Positions 24,278-25,635 of a stretch of DNA of 39,203 bases are shown one piece after another. How positions within the stretch are numbered: the first letter of the stretch is position 1; every line of letters begins with the position of its first letter. The position numbers were made by a program, and so were the translations under genes. This DNA comes from Candidatus Saccharimonadota bacterium (GTDB lineage: Bacteria > Patescibacteriota > Saccharimonadia > Saccharimonadales > Saccharimonadaceae): contig JAFTBP010000009.1 of assembly GCA_017455145.1 (NCBI GenBank), positions 1 through 39,203 of the forward strand. The letters are read 5' to 3'. Below the pieces are notes generated by a model. It did no database searches. It had not been told where the DNA came from and saw only the letters and a list, made by a program, of their open reading frames with translations.

Positions 24278-24745
24278 ATGGCAACCATTGACCAGCAATT
24301 CGTAGAATATATCGTAAAAACTCTAGTGAACAATCCCGACAAAGTCATCGTTGATCGCCAAATTGATGAAAAGGGTGTGCTCCTGAGTCTTACTGTCGAT
24401 CCAGAGGATGTCGGCCGTGTTATCGGTCGTCGTGGCGCTACTGCGCAATCCATTCGCACGCTCCTTCGTGCACTTGGCACCAAGAACGACGCTCGCTACA
24501 ATCTTAAAATCGTAAACGACGAGGCAGCGCCTCGCGCAGAAAAACCAGAAAAAGCTGATAAGCCGGCAGAAGCTACAGAAGGTCCAGAAGCCGTAGAAGG
24601 CCCAGAGGCTCCAGCCGAAGAAGAGCCAGCAGAAGTTGACGAATCCGCCGTAGCCGAAGACACCTTTGGCGACGAAGACGAGGCATCCGATCTCGCCGAA
24701 AAAACTCGTGCCGAGCTCGCCGATATGGACGATTTAGATATTTAA
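24278..24745 (+). CDS. khpA: KH-domain RNA-binding protein KhpA with acidic tail
   Basis: Small KH-domain protein that in other bacteria pairs with KhpB/Jag and binds many RNAs, influencing division and cell wall growth. The N-terminal ~85 residues are the family core, with LSLTVDPEDVGRVIGRRG (GxxG loop IGRRG at 49-53) and TAQSIRTLLRALGTKNDARY. The remaining ~70 residues are an acidic Glu/Ala/Pro tail (EGPEAVEGPEAPAEEEPAEVD) not found in the usual 75-80-aa form. rpsP upstream matches the common gene order. A probable small RNA gene starts 20 bases after its stop. Confidence 0.92.
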   Translation: MATIDQQFVEYIVKTLVNNPDKVIVDRQIDEKGVLLSLTVDPEDVGRVIGRRGATAQSIRTLLRALGTKNDARYNLKIVNDEAAPRAEKPEKADKPAEATEGPEAVEGPEAPAEEEPAEVDESAVAEDTFGDEDEASDLAEKTRAELADMDDLDI

Positions 24746-24764: not shown

Positions 24765-24794
24765 TTGACACGCAGATTCTTGTTATGCTAAAAT
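24765..24794 (+). promoter_or_regulatory. Promoter of the small RNA gene
   Basis: -35 TTGACA (24765-24770, full consensus), 18-base spacer, -10 TAAAAT (24789-24794) preceded by TGC. Expected transcription start is near 24801. Confidence 0.82.
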
Positions 24795-24800
24795 TAGAGC

Positions 24801-24900
24801 AGTTCTATTTGAACAAAAGCTAACTGCGAGTCAGCTTACACTATAAGTTGAGAGCTTATCTGTTCAAAAAGCCACTAGAGTTGAGAGCTAGTGGTTTTTT
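24801..24900 (+). ncRNA. Probable free-standing small RNA, about 100 nt
   Basis: A promoter with consensus -35 and a terminator bracket about 100 bases with no ribosome binding site and no open frame. Structure: closing stem TTTGAACA (24808-24815) with TGTTCAAA (24861-24868), 8 bp perfect. It encloses two hairpins: AAGCT-A-ACT/AGT-C-AGCTT (24817-24837, one mismatch) and ATAAG/CTTAT (24843-24859) with loop TTGAGAG. A terminator hairpin, GCCACTAG/CTAGTGG (24871-24894), follows with T6. The 10-mer GTTGAGAGCT occurs twice (24847-24856 and 24880-24889), in the loops of the third and fourth hairpins. I do not recognise it as 6S, SRP, tmRNA or RNase P RNA. The gene downstream is on the other strand, so it is not a leader. 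Confidence 0.72.
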
Positions 24901-24934
24901 GGTACAAAATCCACACCAAAATCCACTCCGGCAA

Positions 24935-24961: not shown

Positions 24962-25393
24962 CTATTTCCATTCAAACTGTTCTCCGTCAATCCTAAAGAC
25001 TAACCTGGTGTTCTTATCATAAACATCTTCTAGGCGTCCTTCGCAAATTTCGCGTCTGTGAACTAAGAAATCTTTCATCAGGTTAACTACGTCGGACACC
25101 CACTGTGTCCCTCCGCCCATAGTCTCAGTATCAGTTGCGCCATTTCCTTTGACTGTCCTAGTAAAGATAAATTTGGCTCCCGGAAGCACATAAAGCCCAA
25201 CGCTATTAGTAAACATCGGCATTGCCTCAAAACAGGTCCAATATTCCTCCAGGCCCTGCTCTAACAGATAATCATAAAAATCATATATTATAGTTGTAAG
25301 ATTATCTTCCGAATAGTTTACCTCACAGACTAGGACTTCCACTGTATTTGCGATTATGCGTCTCTTGCCATATTCTAATTTCTCTTTTTCCAT
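24962..25393 (-). CDS. Hypothetical protein, 143 aa
   Basis: Not recognised. Mixed alpha/beta soluble protein: start EKEKLEYGKRRIIANTVEVL, a helix IIYDFYDYLLEQGLEEYWTC, a strand-rich centre with FIFTRTVKGNGATDT, and an end RLVFRIDGEQFEWK. No signal peptide or membrane segment. The ATG at 25393 is preceded by GAAGGAGG, a near-perfect ribosome binding site; a longer reading to 25450 lacks one. The leader carries GGGTGCACTTT, shared with the gene at 17927-18493. It is divergent from rpoBC and its -35 hexamer coincides with that of rpoB. Confidence 0.78.
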   Translation of the reverse strand: MEKEKLEYGKRRIIANTVEVLVCEVNYSEDNLTTIIYDFYDYLLEQGLEEYWTCFEAMPMFTNSVGLYVLPGAKFIFTRTVKGNGATDTETMGGGTQWVSDVVNLMKDFLVHRREICEGRLEDVYDKNTRLVFRIDGEQFEWK

Positions 25394-25441
25394 CGTGATC
25401 CCTCCTTCCGATGTAGAACACAAGAATAGAAATACCTTAAT

Positions 25442-25513: not shown

Positions 25514-25547
25514 GTACCACAAGAAGTAGTGTGTCAAGTTTTTCTAT

Positions 25548-25607
25548 GTATCCGAAATTGGCGAATTCGGGATACGGACCTGGCAGTATTCTTCGGCGCT
25601 AAGAATA
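25548..25607 (+). promoter_or_regulatory. Two-hairpin leader of rpoBC
   Basis: First hairpin: GTATCC-GAA (25548-25556) with TTC-G-GGATAC (25566-25575), one bulged G. Second hairpin: TATTCTT (25587-25593) with AAGAATA (25601-25607), loop CGGCGCT. No T tract follows, so it is not a terminator. rplJL, which usually precede rpoB, are absent here. Confidence 0.5.
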
Positions 25608-25635
25608 ATAACACTAATATAACAAGAGGTAACTA

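Follow-up and report, generated by a model that had tools for sequence, protein, structure and literature searches.

A predicted small RNA gene beside khpA, conserved across the Saccharimonadales

The window analysed here is a 39,203-nucleotide stretch of a Candidatus Saccharimonadota genome (contig JAFTBP010000009.1), in which the gene for the KH-domain RNA-binding protein KhpA (24278–24745; PF13083, E 3e-22) is the conserved neighbour of a predicted small RNA. Both are encoded on the forward strand, as are all features of the RNA given below. The promoter (24765–24794) comprises the −35 box TTGACA (24765–24770), an 18-nt spacer and the extended −10 element TGCTAAAAT (TGC-TAAAAT, 24786–24794), and has 11 of the 12 consensus letters in addition to the −10 extension. 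The RNA is about 100 nt long (24801–24900), is described by two covariance models (R1 and R2), and has its start, near 24801, and its end placed from the promoter and from an intrinsic terminator at 24870–24900. The promoter, the terminator and a repeated loop sequence are present as the original prediction described them. The RNA was also said to lack an open frame, and no long frame crosses it in the window sequence; a small-ORF reading of GAGAG...AUG was dropped, with no conserved frame visible by eye. The C terminus of KhpA itself is a conserved acidic stretch, L-A-D-x-D-D-L-D-I-stop, encoded at 24700–24745 in the window and found in relatives. On the other side of the RNA, between it and rpoB, lies a 147-aa reverse-strand reading frame (24962–25405) that has no Pfam match, and for which many relatives leave no room, having just 150–280 bases at this site. 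The forward-strand rpoB leader (25515–25635; ACAAGAAGTAGTGTG ... TCTTCGGCGCTAAGA) seems to be retained ahead of rpoB in several members of the genus (L006, L016), and is possibly a cis-regulatory RNA.

The predicted RNA begins with a GUUC/GAAC hairpin (24802–24814), followed by hairpin H1 (24817–24837; AAGCU-a-ACU-GCG-AGU-c-AGCUU), which contains UGCGAG at 24825–24830. In the window, H1 is rivalled by an alternative helix P2 (24831–24851), in which UCAGCUUA pairs with UAAGUUGA. The computed energies of the two folds are nearly equal (−30.4 kcal/mol with H1 and −31.2 kcal/mol with P2), so that a switch between them is possible. The most conserved motif, GUUGAGAGCUUAU (24847–24859), is the first copy of the loop motif, and the terminator loop holds a second GUUGAGAG at 24880–24887; the 10-mer GTTGAGAGCT is found at both 24847–24856 and 24880–24889. 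The folding of 24765–24900 gives a z-score of −2.0 against shuffled sequences, a modest gain, so that folding alone proves little and the case is carried by conservation.

By blastn, 20 of 151 same-family genomes match, the window's own counted among them; one match (L021) was excluded as it sits inside a protein gene. Covariance model R1, built from 14 relatives, finds a match in 198 of 393 genomes of the order, and model R2, derived from copies in other genera, in 304 of 369; these genomes represent 95 of 129 genera, and almost all have a single match. With these models no convincing copy appears beyond the order: six weak matches in other classes of the phylum (L143–L148), with neither a nearby khpA nor the motif, were judged to be chance. 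A pattern scan of a genome collection returned 111 stretches; among the 80 titles listed, which include Candidatus Nanosyncoccus alces, all are Saccharibacteria but one 'uncultured bacterium'.

The search for compensatory stem changes in related genomes, proposed as a check of the original prediction, did find them. The core in other genera reads GCUC-(0 to 6 nt)-UGCGAG-[P2]-(A)-GAGC(C)UUAURUG, followed by the terminator. The motifs UGCGAG and GAGAG(C)UUAU are nearly invariant. P2 is the strongly covarying helix of these genera, in which 93.8% of cells are paired with 24 double changes (alignment A4); its variants include CAACUU/AAGUUG, CAUC/GAUG, UCUAG/CUAGA, CAAACU/AGUUUG, CGACAAAU/AUUUGUUG and CAGUAAAC/GUUUACUG, and positions 4–6 are occupied by several pair types. 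Over the whole structure, 82.9% of cells pair in the same alignment, compared with 44–59% when it is slid. The window's own genus has a local first hairpin, and its H1 helix length of 5.76 exceeds that of all 200 re-dealings of its arm (mean 5.50, maximum 5.70). RNAalifold on MAFFT alignments did not recover these helices, because insertions and deletions break the register. We note that UGCGAG occurs twice in several other genera (L067, L076, L077 and others), one copy following the 5′ hairpin and the other lying in the core.

The 5′ arm behaves differently from what had been proposed. An 8-bp closing stem between TTTGAACA (24808–24815) and TGTTCAAA (24861–24868) had been taken as one of the defining features; this pairing can form in the window, as can two inner hairpins, but it is not kept in relatives. 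The 5′ arm makes the GUUC/GAAC hairpin instead, and in most relatives the ending is UAUGUCUAAAA at the place of the window's UGUUCAAA. A sister genus has AAUGC/GCAUU instead of the GUUC/GAAC hairpin, and some own-genus copies lack it. Long-range pairing within the own genus does not beat all 200 re-dealings, and a long-range helix between the 5′ arm and GAGAGCUU was rejected there for want of covariation; the same pairing is the predicted fold in basal genera.

The duplication of an exposed loop motif, a central feature of the original prediction, is real in the window, and the motif type is common in terminators of the genus, but hardly any copy other than the window's repeats the 10-mer exactly. 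Among 85 distinct own-genus terminator loops, 54 carry GUUGA, UUGAG, GAGAG or CGUUG, compared with 7 of 202 other terminators in three own-genus genomes (Fisher p 2e-28, indicative only, given the shared ancestry and the choice of words after the loops had been seen). The same words are found in one of 39 loops in other genera, and the terminator-loop copy is largely confined to the own genus.

The predicted position directly beside khpA is borne out in 84 of 89 loci, 80 with khpA upstream on the same strand and four with it on the opposite strand (L003, L017, L092 and L095); the other five have no khpA nearby. The four opposite-strand loci argue that the RNA is not a khpA 3′ tail. Promoter-like sites with at least 10 of 12 consensus letters lie upstream of 39 of the 89 copies, where shuffled sequences lead one to expect 3.6. 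Copies of the own genus have their own TTGAC/TTGC...TATAAT-like promoter. In many other genera the khpA stop codon falls within a TATAAT box, which could serve the RNA; GAYRTATAAT is present in 46 loci.

These arrangements bear on a cis-acting role, either as a trmD attenuator or as a 3′ tail protecting khpA mRNA. Such a role would fit the 80 loci with khpA upstream, and the 38 of 89 in which a same-strand trmD follows the RNA, in some cases 11–25 nt past the terminator. It is nonetheless improbable: in the own genus trmD is not found downstream and the RNA may lie on the strand opposite khpA, the RNA has upstream promoter-like sites of its own, and a TATAAT-like box often stands just before a closely following trmD (in several basal families), suggesting that trmD has its own promoter. 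A trmD leader in the strict sense, always upstream of trmD in the same transcript, was rejected on the count of only 38 of 89 loci. As a separate observation, trmD in L072, L074, L154 and L056 starts a few bases past a TATAAT-like box just behind the RNA terminator, suggesting that its mRNA may be leaderless.

In sum, anatomy and conservation agree with the prediction of a real, separately transcribed small RNA, and we regard the element, as judged from genome sequences, as almost certainly an independent, conserved and structured RNA gene. It is present in about four of five surveyed genomes of this order of tiny parasitic bacteria, mostly as a single copy and in genomes of about 0.6–1.5 Mb, so that its importance to the cell is probable and a pattern arisen by chance is not.

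For its function, the best remaining reading, which we suggest tentatively, is an order-wide RNA that has its own promoter and terminator and would act in trans, probably by binding protein. The invariant purine-rich motifs would be binding sites for an RNA-binding protein, the candidates being UGCGAG, which lies in the first hairpin or bulge, GAGAG(C)UUAU, which follows the second helix, and, in the own genus, the GUUGAG-like motif of the terminator loop. The candidate partner is most plausibly KhpA, because of the position of its gene and because a KhpA-type KH domain (PF13083 type) is found in all 20 relatives tested. The RNA would then either form a particle with that protein or serve as its decoy. 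Protein sequestration and the link to KhpA are no more than possibilities, and the adjacency to khpA may be plain ancestry.

Alternatively, the RNA could base-pair with a single mRNA or a small number of them, using UUGAGAG (in two loops) and UGCGAG as seeds, a possibility that we hold to be rather unlikely. Short, invariant, unpaired segments, the doubled loop motif and an intrinsic terminator like that of known trans-acting RNAs are what such a regulator would have. The scans for targets and for sense copies of the motif covered about 0.8 Mb from three own-genus genomes, with start codons called mechanically. Complements of the loop motif, proposed to lie near start codons, show no enrichment in 714 start regions: for the GUUGAGAG part, 7-mer complements are found 0–1 times, at or below the level in shuffles. 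This speaks against broad antisense regulation at start codons, and the seed is purine-rich, not CU-rich like seeds that cover ribosome-binding sites; a few targets, or targets within genes, are possible. Sense copies of the motif are likewise not enriched at start regions of these genomes, which gives no support to a simple CsrB-like decoy that titrates a regulator of start sites; UGCGAG sense copies number 13 against 5.4 in shuffles, but 9 inside genes.

A diverged housekeeping RNA (SRP RNA, 6S RNA or tmRNA) overlooked by public models would be single-copy, order-wide and near-universal, as this RNA is, and none of 20 order relatives has an SRP RNA (RF00169) above cut-off. The SRP M domain (PF02978), detected in 14 of 14 control genomes, is also absent from all 20; the signal recognition particle thus seems absent from these relatives, leaving the RNA no SRP to serve, and the window RNA has no RF00169 match. 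6S RNA is about 180 nt long with a central bubble. The window RNA is too short for it and does not match RF00013, which gives no match over cut-off in the 20 relatives either, and tmRNA is found separately in 20 of 20 (17 over cut-off). With no Rfam match as well, this reading is largely refuted and highly improbable. A Saccharibacteria-specific housekeeping ribonucleoprotein, in which the RNA and KhpA would form a particle setting KhpA activity cell-wide where no SRP is detected, is a speculative extension of the trans-acting, KhpA-partnered reading and unlikely in itself.

Comparison with known systems places the RNA in a new family of a familiar kind. A match to a known family was named beforehand as grounds for abandoning the prediction; in Rfam 15 no family scores above its gathering score for the window RNA. 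RNAI (RF00106), like other weak matches far under cut-off, was rejected: it has a similar three-hairpin layout and matches 24790–24903 by cmscan, but scores 16.7 bits where the cut-off is 47, and the window RNA is chromosomal, conserved and without plasmid context. CsrB and RsmZ are protein-sequestering RNAs whose hairpin loops titrate CsrA through multiple (A)NGGA motifs. The window RNA resembles them as a stand-alone, probably trans-acting RNA that exposes the same short motif in different loops, but has only two motif copies and no GGA motif in 24801–24900. The LhrC-type multi-seed small RNAs of Listeria (PMC4132741) repeat their motif in both an inner and the terminator loop, as does the window RNA (exact copies in the window; motif in 54 of 85 terminator loops in the genus). 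They differ in that the window motif is purine-rich rather than CU-rich; LhrC-like seeds are complementary to ribosome-binding regions of mRNAs, and complements of the window motif show no enrichment in the 714 start regions. Searches of part of the literature on Saccharibacteria or CPR RNAs brought up neither this RNA nor any small RNA described from these epibionts. Among the KhpA/KhpB-bound small RNAs of Gram-positive bacteria the parallel is one of context, with khpA as the neighbouring gene here and KhpA only a candidate binder. With its own promoter, intrinsic terminator, conserved structure and lack of an open frame, the RNA has the general features of a bacterial trans-acting small RNA, and it offers both a new Rfam family and a direct test of KhpA binding in this lineage.
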